Assembly (NCBI RefSeq): GCF_003324485.1
Contig: NZ_QODK01000001.1
Location: forward strand, 124,001-188,000
Source: Cohaesibacter intestini
Lineage (GTDB): Bacteria > Pseudomonadota > Alphaproteobacteria > Rhizobiales > Cohaesibacteraceae
Length of the DNA: 64,000 bases
Direction of reading: 5' to 3'
Position 1 is the first letter of the stretch, and each line of letters starts with the position of its first letter. Positions 23,101 through 28,480 of the stretch are shown one piece after another. A model generated the notes under the pieces. It saw only the letters and a list, made by a program, of their open reading frames with translations. It was not told the DNA's origin and did no database searches. Made by a program: the position numbers and the translations under genes.

Positions 23101-23267
23101 ATGTGGTCGAGCTGATTGGCAAGCGCCTGCTGGCGCTGATCACGGCCTATGACGACCCGTCCAAGGGCTATCCATCGCGGGCGCGACCGATGTTTGAGCG
23201 GTTTGAAAGCCCCTATGACCATCTGGCGCGGGTCAAGGAATGGTCTTTGCATGGGGAGGAGAGCTGA
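20145..23267 (+). CDS. addB: AddB, double-strand break repair nuclease subunit
   Basis: 1040 aa, alphaproteobacterial AddB type. An inactive helicase-like N-terminal half (IVYVPTQRTADALKEAFLP; GSTGSIPATADLLQAVA) and a middle region with VVIGGLNEGSWPAET are followed by a C-terminal PD-(D/E)XK nuclease (LSVTEIETWVRDPYALY, then LHVIDFKTGTPPSAKQ). With AddA it processes double-strand ends to 3' tails for RecA. The ATG at 20145 is chosen because AGGA lies 7 bases ahead; a TTG at 20130 is the alternative. The addB stop and addA start are separated by 2 bases, so expression is coupled. Confidence 0.95.
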   Translation: MDAAPSIFSISPASPFLATLIDALIEGRLLPHFRADSPADLGRAIVYVPTQRTADALKEAFLPHLQSRGWQSVILPRIHVIGDMDEDLMPFKVAAGGDDGFWQLPTAMDSLQRRLSMTSLVHRWAQNYAREALSLSASETLHVSNTPSDAAYLAIDLLALIDAVHRERSDWALLEGLVPEDYSAFWQISLKFLETATSLWPDYLKALGLVDPVERRNAVLKAEIEAIKAHDGPVIAAGSTGSIPATADLLQAVAHHAQGALILPGLDFHLDEESWQAIGALHPAIGQAAGVAGHPQFNLKQLLDQIGAKRTDVVDLSSLSQTQSDRILLVSEALRPAETTDKWGESLGRLSDAMRQEALAGVALAEAENEQEEARIAALALREVLERPDARAALVTPDRALARRVLLELKRWKIDVEDTAGMPLAETPPALLLRLMVECVIDRFDPVRLLALLKHPLTSFGLPRSEVRRAARFLELQVLRGPRLGAGIAPIRKELFRKCEEAEKRHQSGDFKTEIWDLCAGLIDQLEASVAPLLVLTEQEDSAQFAQWVEAAIASLETLAADQEGTPDRLYDEAAGRALLSFFDRAGQWNEGSLPLDGRDVPPFLVAMMSGETVLSHGEGDPRLQLLGTLEARLLDVDRVVIGGLNEGSWPAETKSDAWLSRPMRAGMLLEPPERRIGLAAHDFAQAMGRAEVVLIRSLKTGGQPTVPSRWLQRLEAVSGPLARAAMRERGACYGRWAKALDAPQRTISLHRPEPVPPLDARPRHLSVTEIETWVRDPYALYAKHVLGLRPLDDIGTAPGGAEKGSIIHDILGDFTQSWTGPYDESAVEKLLELGREAFKRLEHFPELLAFWWPRFERIARWFVLDWEASRTGEIAGRYAEISGAITLPVRGGDFHLRGRADRLDISLDDRLHVIDFKTGTPPSAKQVLPGFAPQLALEGYMAKLGGFSDIPHGIEMADMAWIRLSGGRKPGEVKSGVEKDYAAEDVVELIGKRLLALITAYDDPSKGYPSRARPMFERFESPYDHLARVKEWSLHGEES

Positions 23268-23269
23268 TC

Positions 23270-26200
23270 ATGGCCTTTGACATTCCAGCCGACACGCTGC
23301 TGGCGCAAGCCAATGCCTCCCACCCTGATTATTCTGCATGGGTGAGCGCCAATGCGGGCTCGGGCAAGACCTTTGTCTTGGCCCGCCGGGTGATCCGCTT
23401 GTTGCTCAATGGCACCGAACCCTCGCGCATTCTTTGCCTGACCTTTACCAAAGCGGCGGCGGCGGAAATGTCGAACCGGGTCTTTGCCGAATTGTCCGGC
23501 TGGACCGAATTGTCTGACGCGGCGCTGAAGGACAAGCTTACCGAGATTGAAGGCAAGGCCCCGTCTGACGCCACATTGCAGCTGGCCCGGCGTCTGTTTG
23601 CGCGGGCGTTGGAAACGCCGGGCGGCCTCAAAATCCAGACCATCCATGCCTTTGCCGAACGCTTGCTGCATCAGTTCCCGCTGGAGGCCAATGTTCCGGC
23701 GCACTTTGAAATTCTCGATGACCAATTGGCCACAGAACTCCTGCAAGCAGCCCTTGGCCATGTGATGCGCTCGGCGCGGCTGGGCAAGCGCCCCGACTGG
23801 CAACAGGCGCTCAATCTGCTGATTGATCATATGGGCGATGGGGACATCCAGACCGCTTTGGCCGATCTGGTGCGAAGGCGCGATGGCTTTGGCCGCTTCC
23901 TTGAAATGAGCGAAGGGACAAAGGCCGCTGGTGGCGAAACCGGGCTGGAAGCGGCGTTGGCCGCGCTCGCCCAAGGGCTGGATCTCAGTCCCTCTGACAG
24001 CCTTGCCGCGCTGACAGCCAGCATTCCGTTCGGCCCCGGCTTTGATCGCGATGCGATTGCGGCACTTGCCCCGTTGTTTGAGACCGGCGGCAAGCGCGAC
24101 AAGGATCAGGCGGCCTTGATGCGGGTTTTGCTGGCAGCCGACAGCGAGGCAGTGCAGGTCAGCCTGTGGCAGCAGATTTTCCGCAAGAAGGACGGTGCGG
24201 CCAAGGCCGACAGCACCTTTGCGTCCAAAAAGATGCGCGAGGCGGAGCCGTCCCTTTCGGGCCGCACCGACCGAGAACAGACGCGTCTTGATGCCTTGGC
24301 CGACAAAAGCAATGCCCTTGTTACTCTTGAGGTCAGCCGGGCTTTGTTCACATTGGCGGACGGCGTGATTGGCCATTATGAACGGGCCAAGGCGGCGCGT
24401 GGGTTGATGGATTTTGACGATCTGATCCTCAAGGCAGCCGACCTGCTGCGCCCGGTCAATGCGGCCGCCTGGGTGCATTACAAACTCGATCAGGGGATCG
24501 ATCATATTCTGGTCGATGAGGCGCAGGATACCAACCCGCATCAATGGGCGATCATTCGCCAGCTGGGGGAAGAATTTTTCTATGGCGACAGTGGGCGGGC
24601 CGAAAATCGGACGATTTTTGCGGTTGGCGACGAGAAACAATCGATCTATTCCTTCCAAGGGGCCGAACCCAAATGGTTCGCTGACATGCGCCGCTTCTTC
24701 AAGCAGCGTGCCAACGAAGCGAAAAAGCCGTTCCATGACATCAAACTGCGGCTGTCTTTCCGCTCGACGCCGCATGTGCTGCGCTCGGTGGATTCGGTCT
24801 TCTCGATTGAGAGCACCTATGATGCCTTGTCGTCGGACAAGGAAGCCACGGTGCATGAACCGATCCGTCAACGCGACCCCGGACTGGTGGAAATCTGGCC
24901 GCTTTATGAGCCGGTTGAGCAAGAGATTGATGAGGATTGGGCCAAGCCGCTCGATGCGCAGGGGGATCTCAGCCCGCCGGTCCAATTGGCCCGAACCATT
25001 GCCCGCACCGTGCGCCATTGGATTGAAACGGGCGAGCGGCTGGAAGGCAGCGGACGCGCCATCACGGCTGGCGACATTCTGGTTTTGGTGCGCAAACGCG
25101 GGGCCTTCGTCACGGCGGTCAATCGGGCGCTGAAGGAAGAAGGCCTGCCGGTGGCAGGCGCCGACCGCTTGGCGTTGCTTGATCATATTGCGGTGATGGA
25201 TTTGTTGTCACTGGGGGATGTGATGCTGTTGCCAGAGGATGATCTGTCGCTCGCCGCTGTGCTAAAAAGCCCGCTTTTCGGCCTGTCGGAGGAGCGGCTG
25301 TTTGACCTCGCCCATCAATCGGGTGGACGCCGCCGCAGCCTGTGGGACAGCCTGAAGAAACGCGCCGAAAGCGGGGCCGCGGCGGATGCGGATTTCGCCG
25401 AAATTTTCGCGCAATTGTTCCGCTGGCAGAGCCAGATCGACTTCCAGCCTCCTTTTGACTTTTTCGCCCAAGTGTTGGGGCCGGATGGCAAAAGGCAAGC
25501 CTTTGTTGAACGGTTGGGACCAGAAGCCGATGAAGTGATCGACGAATTGCTGTCACGGGCGCTCGATTTTGAAAAGACCCAGACGCCGAACCTGCAGGCC
25601 TTTCTTGCTGCGATGCGACAGGGTGGCGCGGAAATCAAGCGCGATATGGGCGCCGCCGATGACCAGATCCGCGTCATGACGGTGCATGGCTCGAAGGGTC
25701 TGGAAGCGCCGATTGTCTTTCTGGTCGATGGCACCGGACAGCCAGCCAATGCACGCCACCATCCGCACTTGGTGACGCTGACCCATGACGATCCTGATCC
25801 TCTGTCCGACCATCCCGACCTGATGGTCTGGAAAGCGCCGACCGCCAACCAGCCAAGTCCGGTGAAGCAGAGCCTGAGCAAGCTTGACCGGGAAGCGGAA
25901 GAGGAATATCTGCGTCTGCTTTATGTCGGCATGACACGGGCCGAAGACCGGCTTTATCTCTGCGGCTATCGCGGCAAACGCGAGGCTTCAGAAAATTGCT
26001 GGTATGAAGTGGCCCGCCGGTCCCTGTCGGACAAATTGCTTGAAGTGGCCCATCCGCTGAGCGGCGATGTGGTTCATCGCTGGCAATTGGAGGGGAGCTT
26101 TGTTGCCAAGGATGGCAAACAAGAGGGGCCAAAAGGCGCTGATATCCCACACGCTCCCTTGCCGGACTGGCTTAGGCAACCGGCAAGCCCTGCCCCGACG

Positions 26201-27367: not shown

Positions 27368-27523
27368 GGGCACATTCCACCTCACAAAAGCCGGAGGTTC
27401 AGAAAGTCTGGTGGCAAGGGAGATCGCCCGCAAGGCACGACAGCACGATCGCCGCCACAAATTGGGCGACACGGCGTGCGGATGGGGTATGTTTTCGGGA
27501 AAAGTCTCCCCAAAATAACGAAA

Positions 27524-27551
27524 GCCCACCGGGGGAGGAGGTCCGGTGGGC
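27524..27551 (-). ncRNA. CCTCCTCCC-loop hairpin 1 (CcsR/cuckoo-like sRNA, last of array)
   Basis: Stem GCCCACCGG/CCGGTGGGC, 9 perfect pairs. On the minus strand the loop is ACCTCCTCCC. The stem is followed on the minus strand by TTTCGTTATTTT, so it can also end the transcript. The loop is complementary to a Shine-Dalgarno GGAGG. It is the third motif-bearing hairpin downstream of the DUF1127 gene. Confidence 0.75.
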
Positions 27552-27561
27552 TTCGTTGCAA

Positions 27562-27593
27562 GATCCAAAACCGGGAGGAGGATGTTTTGGATC
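27562..27593 (-). ncRNA. CCTCCTCCC-loop hairpin 2
   Basis: Stem GATCCAAAAC/GTTTTGGATC, 10 perfect pairs; minus-strand loop ATCCTCCTCCCG. It is separated from hairpin 1 by 10 bases and hairpin 3 by 3 bases. The stem sequence is unrelated to that of its neighbours while the loop is conserved, the hallmark of a loop-selected family. Confidence 0.75.
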
Positions 27594-27596
27594 TAT

Positions 27597-27625
27597 CAGG
27601 CTTTTTGGGAGGAGAAGAAAGCCTG
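27597..27625 (-). ncRNA. CCTCCTCCC-loop hairpin 3
   Basis: Stem CAGGCTTT/AAAGCCTG, 8 perfect pairs, extendable; minus-strand loop CTTCTCCTCCCAA, which keeps CTCCTCCC. It lies 17 bases beyond hairpin D, which directly follows the DUF1127 stop codon. Confidence 0.72.
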
Positions 27626-27642
27626 AATTTGCTGAAACTGTG

Positions 27643-27676
27643 GGCTTTCGCTTGAGACAAGTCAGAAGCGAAAGTC
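27643..27676 (-). other. Hairpin without the motif at the DUF1127 3' end
   Basis: GGCTTTCGCTT pairs with AAGCGAAAGTC (one G-T) around a 12-base loop, starting 4 bases after the DUF1127 stop on the minus strand. The loop reads CTGACTTGTCTC and lacks CCTCC. It may protect the mRNA end or mark the processing point between the mRNA and the small-RNA part. Confidence 0.6.
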
Positions 27677-27680
27677 TTTA

Positions 27681-27833
27681 TTACACGCGGGCAGCTTCCC
27701 GAGCGATAGAGGTGATGTCTGCGCGGGAGATACCCAGATCGTTCAGATCGCGGTTGCTCAAGCGGCTCAGTTCATCAACAGTGTCACGGTAGTTGCGCCA
27801 CTGACGGTAATTTTTCACAACGTTATCAAGCAT
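27681..27833 (-). CDS. Small DUF1127 protein, CcaF1-like
   Basis: 50 aa: MLDNVVKNYRQW, then DTVDELSRLSNRDLNDLGIS and a basic end, the classic DUF1127 pattern (YRxxxxELxxLsdReLxDIGisRxdI). The start at 27833 is chosen because AAAGGATG lies about 8 bases upstream; the longer frame to 27890 adds an unrelated Arg-rich stretch. In Rhodobacter sphaeroides a DUF1127 protein (CcaF1) is encoded with CcsR small RNAs and binds RNA. The same pairing is seen here, so a role in RNA turnover is likely. The AT-rich 650 bases upstream suggest complex regulation. Confidence 0.9.
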   Translation of the reverse strand: MLDNVVKNYRQWRNYRDTVDELSRLSNRDLNDLGISRADITSIAREAARV

Positions 27834-28480
27834 GATAATCATCCTTTCACTGTGGCTTCGGTATCGAGTTCTTTTTGTTTCTCTTTGCAACGAAGCGGGC
27901 CGTAACTCGATTTAAAGCGTCGCTCCGTTGTGTTGATTTGTATATAGCTCATAGCTCGGGCATTTACATCGCTCAGTTTTGCATAGCTGTCTTGCGAAAC
28001 ATGCAAAACCATTGTTACTCATTTTTTATCCATGCATAAAACGCATAGCTTGAGGTGCTCAAGAATATTATTCAATTTTTTCAATTACTTAACTCGATTT
28101 ACTACGCAAATCACCTTACAACCTTGGTTTAAGACAAGCGTTTGTATTTTACAGGTTTGGAGCGTTTTAAACCGGCATTTGGGGTCCAAACGCAAAATTT
28201 TGAAGTAATTCTAATTAGTTACGGAGCTGCGTCCTTCTGACCCACGCTAGAAGCATTCAAAATTGTAACGATTTCCATTCCAACCGACGGAACGGGTCTC
28301 CGGAAGTTTCAAGCAAACGTTTGCGCGAAATGCTGCTTTTTACGGCATTTGCCTAGCCGAATGGAGCGGTTATTGAGCACGCACTCCAGTTTCTTGTCAA
28401 AAAATGCATATCTCGAAAAAAGTTTTGGCCGTGATGTACGGGGCTTGACCCTGTGCGAAACTCGTTTTGCAGCGCTTTTT
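27834..28480. promoter_or_regulatory. Long AT-rich regulatory region upstream of the DUF1127-sRNA operon
   Basis: About 650 bases with no credible gene. It contains GTTTTGCAT/ATGCAAAAC (27976-27984 and 28001-28009), a 9-base dyad; CTTGAG-GTG-CTCAAG at 28049-28063; and three copies of CATAGCT at 27950, 27982 and 28044, spaced 32 and 62 bases, close to three and six helical turns. A TATATAC on the minus strand near 27940-27946 could be a -10. The right end adjoins the folC stop. No RpoH-type promoter could be assigned with confidence. Confidence 0.5.
28313..28324. promoter_or_regulatory. Perfect palindrome GCAAACGTTTGC
   Basis: A 12-base perfect palindrome with an AAACGTTT core, the shape of LacI/GalR-family operators (AAnCGnTT). 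It is intergenic, about 480 bases upstream of the DUF1127 start and downstream of folC. No LacI-type regulator is in the window. Confidence 0.3.

Follow-up and report, generated by a model that had tools for sequence, protein, structure and literature searches.

A DUF1127 gene followed by an ar14-family small RNA array behind a conserved LysR-type box in Cohaesibacter intestini

Organisation of the locus

The window analysed here is a stretch of 64,000 nucleotides from Cohaesibacter intestini (contig NZ_QODK01000001.1, positions 124,001 to 188,000). Its minus strand carries a DUF1127 gene and, 3' of this gene, three hairpins with a shared loop motif; putative promoter elements lie upstream (Table 1). 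The locus is flanked by a folC-type gene (minus strand) on one side and by the thioredoxin gene trxA (plus strand) on the other, with an accD-type gene beyond the former and an addA-type helicase gene beyond the latter, the folC, accD and addA-type names being assigned from Pfam families. The small, arginine-rich protein passes the Pfam DUF1127 test at 58 bits (cut-off 23.3), which bears out the first-pass annotation in placing a DUF1127 gene beside the hairpins. Its stop codon occupies 27683-27681 on the minus strand, and an alternative in-frame ATG is found at 27842.

Table 1. Features of the locus in window coordinates; hairpin limits are those of the centroid structure of the predicted fold.
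Feature	Position	Strand	Basis or remark
Composite LysR-type box	28005-27980	-	TGCA-N6-GCA and CAAGACAGCTATGCA, overlapping; 37-promoter alignment
LsrB form TGCA-N6-GCA	28005-27992	-	Published box, sequence match
VtlR form CAAGACAGCTATGCA	27994-27980	-	Published box, sequence match
Putative -10 element CTATAT	27942-27947	-	TAT conserved in promoter alignment
DUF1127 gene, 50 residues	27681-27833	-	Pfam PF06568, E 7.4e-16
Spacer hairpin without motif	27645-27674	-	Predicted fold; 8-pair stem
ar14 hairpin 1	27596-27626	-	Loop motif CTCCTCCC at 27607-27614
ar14 hairpin 2	27561-27594	-	Loop motif at 27573-27580
ar14 hairpin 3 and T-rich tail	27512-27557	-	Hairpin 27557-27517; loop motif at 27533-27540
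Whole ar14 match, Rfam RF02344	27517-27631	-	Model positions 1-123, 88.5 bits
addA-type helicase gene, GGGAGGAG ribosome site and ATG	23254-23272	+	Possible target

Three hairpins with a shared loop

Each of the three minus-strand copies of CTCCTCCC lies inside a predicted hairpin loop, with mean unpaired probabilities of 0.97, 0.99 and 1.00. The motif is not unusual by itself, with four occurrences in the window against 2.44 expected and a count of four reached in 23 of 100 shuffles; the fourth occurrence arises from the ribosome site of addA (23254-23261), read on the opposite strand. A run of three copies with the spacing of hairpins is found once in the window and in none of 100 shuffles, and the fold of 27505-27690 has a z-score of -5.75, equalled by none of 200 shuffles. 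These figures confirm the central claim of the first-pass annotation, that three adjacent hairpins expose a common loop. The claim that the loops are identical holds for the 8-mer, which is present in all three, but not for the loops as a whole; loop 1 reads TCTCCTCCC whereas loops 2 and 3 read CCTCCTCCC, the first C of the 9-mer being replaced by U in loop 1. The layout around them also differs from that first described, in that the first motif hairpin begins ∼55 bases after the stop codon rather than 4, and the hairpin without the motif sits directly 3' of the stop codon instead of at the end of the mRNA.

The stems of the three motif hairpins are unrelated to one another, as had been noted, but this divergence does not extend to the orthologs within the genus, in which the stems are well conserved (mean column identity 85% over 19 sequences); the same loops on different stems are seen between families. 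Across the 19 window-type loci the four helices comprise 43 pairs with 99.0% of cells paired, and the loop motifs are invariant in all 19. Changes on both sides of a pair occur at five pairs, in 16 cells, where shuffles give 4.0 and slid versions 0-1; five such pairs are also reached in 17 of 500 shuffles, making this measure alone a modest one. The eight-pair stem of the spacer hairpin is identical in all 19 loci, with a variable loop, and so provides no covariation evidence for this hairpin; it suggests that the stem itself may be recognised. We conclude that the three motif hairpins are real, non-random and conserved. Directly after the third comes TTTCGTTATTTT and, given this and its shape, hairpin 3 may double as a terminator; a terminator scan of the minus strand, which permits loops of up to 8, does not list it.

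Assignment to the ar14 family

The covariance-model search matches the array over the full length of Rfam ar14 (RF02344), 88.5 bits comparing with a cut-off of 58.8. The score for CcsR1 (RF02791) is 22.8 bits, below its cut-off of 65.3, and rules out CcsR as the nearest family; an orphan copy of the array elsewhere in the same genome (L002, see below) scores 29.1 bits with this model. The CcsR/cuckoo identification originally proposed is therefore right about the kind of RNA, a DUF1127-linked array of anti-Shine-Dalgarno hairpins placed, as in CcsR, 3' of the DUF1127 gene on the same strand, but not about the family, the nearest being ar14. The first-pass annotation had looked to a below-threshold covariance score and to relatives lacking the hairpins as grounds for doubt; the ar14 score is above threshold and the relatives carry the hairpins. 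Matches at the array to Rfam 6C (34.8 bits) and RNAI (25.9 bits) are both below the cut-off of 47, and we regard the likeness, between C-rich hairpins, as fortuitous.

The closest known relative is NfeR1 of Sinorhizobium meliloti, reported to have three hairpins with divergent stems and an ultraconserved CCUCCUCCC anti-Shine-Dalgarno motif (PMC10746234). According to the same report it silences ntrB, the silencing being lost upon mutation of the three loops, has transporter targets and is Hfq-independent, its chaperone, if any, being called an open question by the authors. The window array shares the three hairpins, the CCUCCUCCC loops (with the U variant in loop 1) and the unrelated stems. 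Together with the whole-model match, this makes its assignment as an ar14 small RNA, of the NfeR1/SmelA075 anti-Shine-Dalgarno family, well supported at the sequence level. SmelA075 and SmelA099 were described in 2011, with three and four hairpins, as stress-induced RNAs with several processed forms, a Rhodobacter RNA, RS0680a, being named as similar (PMC3927594); no mention of DUF1127 was found in the text of that paper.

Copies within the genus

All 18 genomes of the genus that were searched contain ar14, with 37 matches over the cut-off and six weaker ones. For 35 of the 37 copies the same strand carries a DUF1127 frame whose end is 0-52 bases before the ar14 copy; 34 of these frames were recognised by Pfam and one, at L030, from reading frames. 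Nine of the 34 score 22.7 bits and were treated as passing the cut-off along with their frame neighbours. The two orphans, L002 in the window's genome (G000) and L027 in G015, are trmFO copies from which the DUF1127 gene is gone. Judged by neighbouring genes, 17 copies belong to the trmFO site, uvrA being the gene on the opposite side in most of them, and L018, which is cut by its contig, is assigned to it by a DUF1127 protein identical to that of L019; each of the 18 genomes has one trmFO-site copy. The window copy, at the folC-trxA locus, is distinct from these uvrA-trmFO copies. Its site holds 14 copies in 14 of the 18 genomes, L028 with folC only and the rest also with trxA, and a further five copies, in five genomes, have neither folC, trxA, trmFO nor uvrA as neighbours.

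Over 37 codons, and with L030 excluded from both trmFO groups, pN/pS of DUF1127 is 0.159 for the 14 folC-type copies, 0.180 for the five unplaced copies, 0.236 for six full-length trmFO copies and 0.037 for nine divergent trmFO copies. We conclude that the DUF1127 protein is real and is maintained by purifying selection. The nine divergent copies (e.g. L033-L039) have ECEVSISR in place of DLNDLGISR and are one codon shorter; the idea that DUF1127 is decaying in them was dropped, since their pN/pS indicates strong constraint.

A tree of the 35 DUF1127-plus-array sequences, with the two orphans excluded, places the trmFO copies on one side of a branch with support 94/89 and gathers the five unplaced copies in one clade with support 98/99; the folC site alone requires two changes. 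As the root is the midpoint, we infer the direction of change rather than read it from the tree. Given that trmFO copies occur in 18 of 18 genomes and that ar14 lies near trmFO or uvrA in other families, the most likely origin of the window cassette is a duplication of the trmFO cassette that included its promoter.

Several of the six weaker matches (L040-L045, 31-35 bits) show two hairpins with CTCCTCC-type loops and no DUF1127, and are possibly more small RNAs of the same kind. A 67-position pattern of the array, sought in a collection of named genomes from which very near records may be omitted, was found in C. marisflavi and C. haloalkalitolerans only; in each of them, parts of the surrounding 11 kb can be aligned, at 68-76% identity.

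S. meliloti and wider distribution

Three ar14 copies are present in the S. meliloti record CP090106.1 (109.2, 108.5 and 87.2 bits). Two stand in tandem, and ∼600 bases beyond them come two DUF1127 genes and then trmFO; no DUF1127 is annotated close to the third. Copies near trmFO are common to S. meliloti and the genus. The order of the parts differs, ar14 being directly 3' of DUF1127 here whereas in S. meliloti the tandem ar14 copies come first and the DUF1127 genes after them. The window protein is 50% identical to both S. meliloti DUF1127 proteins over 46 residues. TGCATCACTTGCA stands 71 bases before the second tandem copy; the literature locates the nfeR1 LsrB site at -72 to -60, and we infer that this copy is NfeR1.

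Among 121 genomes sampled from the order, 40 have an ar14 match at E 0.001 and 15 have one over the cut-off. Outside the genus there are 31 over-cut-off copies in 12 genomes, 20 of them with a DUF1127 frame upstream on the same strand when second and third arrays in tandem are counted with their cluster and gaps of up to 219 bases are allowed. The other 11 are without one, indicating that the ar14 RNA can do without DUF1127. Two or three whole arrays occur in tandem in G086, G121 and G032; those at L103 1501-1975, L104 1501-1815 and L112 1501-1833 (reverse) are complete arrays in direct tandem behind DUF1127, with six to nine anti-Shine-Dalgarno loops consecutively.

The exact triple-loop pattern was found in 4 of 289 genomes in a class-wide scan, namely the window's own, G140 and G254 (short tandem repeats) and G385 (ambiguous); this pattern is stricter than the family and nearly all the genomes listed are outside the order, so that it supports no wide conclusion. 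A DNA similarity search of a plasmid collection gave no match although an S. meliloti record in it holds ar14, which makes the method too weak for this RNA.

Promoter and candidate regulator

When the promoters of all 37 copies in the genus are aligned, 26 columns stand out, those of the composite box of Table 1; their mean identity is 0.850, compared with 0.614 in 182 other columns. Two published forms overlap in this box: TGCA-N6-GCA, which is the LsrB site of nfeR1, and, beginning 12 bases after it, a VtlR form that fits the boxes given in print as CAATGCAGCCATGCA and, on the other strand, GCAT-N3-TG-N3-T (the VtlR box, VtlR control of DUF1127 genes and DUF1127 proteins are treated in PMC12218461, PMC12595884, PMC12501420, PMC7486931 and PMC8625941). 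The VtlR form is present in 35 of the 37 promoters, the LsrB form in 22 and both in 21. At the aligned place the VtlR fit is A-N3-CA-N3-ATGC in the window and 34 other promoters, and the two promoters without it are those of the orphans.

At loci outside the genus, the 600 bases upstream contain TGCA-N6-GCA in 14 of 16 cases linked to DUF1127 and in 6 of the 13 orphans, a set that includes two from S. meliloti; 2.09 of 29 would be expected. The motif is not confined to ar14 promoters, being present in 7 of 29 control stretches taken downstream. The VtlR form is found in only 7 of the 29 upstream stretches, and both forms at the 12-base offset occur at four loci (the second array of L105, L106, L108 and L112).

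As in nfeR1, the TGCA-N6-GCA match is placed about 70 bases before the estimated start, and the distance from box to putative -10 element agrees with that of S. meliloti nfeR1. We estimate that transcription would start near 27935. A sigma-70 scan lists no minus-strand promoter at the putative -10 region, and no separate promoter for the ar14 RNA was seen at the window locus.

A candidate for the regulator is encoded in the window's genome directly after trxB (L123 2558-3517, plus strand). This VtlR/LsrB-type LysR protein is 60.5% identical to a protein annotated VtlR in R. leguminosarum and likewise 60.5% identical to the S. meliloti LysR protein encoded after trxB; its best solved relative is 9hh1 (416 bits). 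Just behind the gene is a weak match to ar15, which we take to be the AbcR family (L123 3671-3805, plus strand; 32.5 bits, cut-off 40); a VtlR-form box precedes this match by 60 bases, as expected of a VtlR target.

LsrB and VtlR have been described as redox-associated (PMC11975290), and the published accounts have LsrB switching on nfeR1 and VtlR switching on DUF1127 genes; nfeR1 is also under NtrC control in S. meliloti. The box and the position of the regulator gene beside trxB are both as in the VtlR/LsrB regulon (AbcR RNAs, DUF1127 genes, VrsA), and the ar14-DUF1127 unit is probably under VtlR/LsrB control. The difference is that DUF1127 genes and small RNAs are described as separate targets in that regulon, whereas here they would form one unit.

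The promoter also bears on a second reading, in which the locus would be of true CcsR type, a stress operon driven by RpoH and resembling ccaF1-CcsR1-4 of Rhodobacter sphaeroides (CIN1/cuckoo), and would give rise to several separate short RNAs instead of a single three-hairpin ar14 RNA. At ccaF1-CcsR an RpoHI/RpoHII promoter is reported to precede the DUF1127 gene and CCUCCUCCC hairpins, the DUF1127 protein CcaF1 is an RNA-binding protein that helps the small RNA encoded after it to mature, and the linkage of DUF1127 with such RNAs in alphaproteobacteria is called CIN1 (PMC10253847). The gene order, on one strand, is the same here, and the processed forms of SmelA075 are likewise in keeping with several RNAs. 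Against this stand the low CcsR1 score, an array of three ar14-type hairpins where ccaF1 is followed by four CcsR RNAs, and a promoter that, with its conserved LysR-type box, looks different from the RpoHI/RpoHII type, and we consider a CcsR-type locus unlikely.

Candidate targets

The pattern GGGAGGAG-N3-9-ATG has 18 sites in the genome compared with 3 reversed, and the control AAGGAGGT-N3-9-ATG has 9 compared with 5, counts that are too few for an enrichment test, so that the targets stay suggestive. Of the frames behind the 18 sites, 13 reach 100 residues or more, and ten of these were searched against Pfam as 120-residue N-terminal pieces; L134 and L139 stand outside this batch, as does addA, which was typed in the Pfam search of the window. 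Among the ten are a DctP solute-binding protein (twice), a DUF2291 periplasmic lipoprotein, DUF2147, an FGGY kinase, Fe-ADH and a rhodanese; a polysaccharide lyase match is just below the cut-off and two have none. Nine close orthologs of one DctP gene, 80-100% identical and from nine of the 18 genomes, keep GGGAGGAG (seven) or GGGAGGAA (two); a remoter paralog is without it, and the other nine genomes yielded only remote relatives of this gene. At the DctP site the loop pairs better than an assumed 16S tail (-15.9 compared with -13.5 kcal/mol). The agreement of these candidates with the transporter targets reported for NfeR1 is only suggestive.

The addA gene, two genes away, is a possible target with a perfect 8-base complement of the loop at its ribosome site; it was set aside, as the assumed 16S tail pairs better there than the loop (-18.2 compared with -15.9 kcal/mol). 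The idea that the loops regulate their own DUF1127 gene was rejected, as the pairing is poor (-4.2 kcal/mol).

A proposed mechanism

We think it likely that DUF1127 and ar14 form an operon-like unit that is activated by VtlR/LsrB and whose RNA loops block GGGAGGAG ribosome sites. The LysR regulator encoded beside trxB would probably bind the composite box, switching on one transcript from about 27935 that would span both DUF1127 and the array, and from which DUF1127 would be translated. A cut would probably fall between the spacer hairpin and the array (from about 27631), RNase E acting with CcaF1 on ccaF1-CcsR being the model for this step; DUF1127 may itself act on the RNA. The spacer hairpin would then shield the 3' end of the DUF1127 mRNA, and the freed RNA would display three CUCCUCCC loops that could pair with the GGGAGGAG ribosome sites of target mRNAs, probably including several for periplasmic or transport proteins, and so block their translation.

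The hairpins could instead be only the 3' end and terminator of the DUF1127 mRNA, guarding it against decay with no action in trans. The T-rich stretch after hairpin 3 and the invariant spacer stem past the stop codon would fit such a role, but the loops are invariant in 19 of 19 loci and some stem pairs co-change, the orphan copies retain their loops without DUF1127, and an S. meliloti target is silenced by related loops; a purely protective function thus seems quite improbable. We give very little weight to the view that the RNA is chiefly a sponge for G-rich small RNAs or a protein and not an mRNA repressor, which three identical loops would suit and for which an RNA sponge published from another alphaproteobacterium offers a precedent (PMC12559287), in view of the reported loss of ntrB silencing when the three NfeR1 loops are mutated.

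DUF1127 and NfeR1

On the preferred reading, a VtlR/LsrB-activated unit with repressor loops, the locus would bring together two literatures that are apart in the papers searched, one reaching NfeR1/ar14 through LsrB and the other reaching DUF1127 through the homolog VtlR or tying it to CcsR RNAs. Here both products lie behind one promoter matching both published boxes, and the trmFO locus ties them to nfeR1. The RNA family itself is well known, and the joining of DUF1127 with NfeR1 appears to be the new part; in the literature searched, neither DUF1127 together with NfeR1 nor Cohaesibacter together with a small RNA was found, and the original cuckoo and CcaF1 papers, which lay outside that search, may contain the link.

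DUF1127 may be the missing partner of the Hfq-independent NfeR1 RNAs, and the gene order names it as a testable candidate for the NfeR1 chaperone. More tentatively, the DUF1127-ar14 unit under VtlR/LsrB might represent the ancestral nfeR1 locus, with DUF1127 as a dedicated chaperone or maturation factor of these RNAs. For DUF1127 proteins elsewhere, protein contacts are reported in Agrobacterium, and the published description of Salmonella YjiS gives no evidence of RNA binding. As S. meliloti keeps two DUF1127 genes between the tandem ar14 and trmFO, the question of an NfeR1 chaperone is directly testable there. The S. meliloti record used here, CP090106.1 (L144, L148), is labelled pSymB; at 3.7 Mb and carrying tig, trmFO and trxB, it is probably a mislabelled chromosome.
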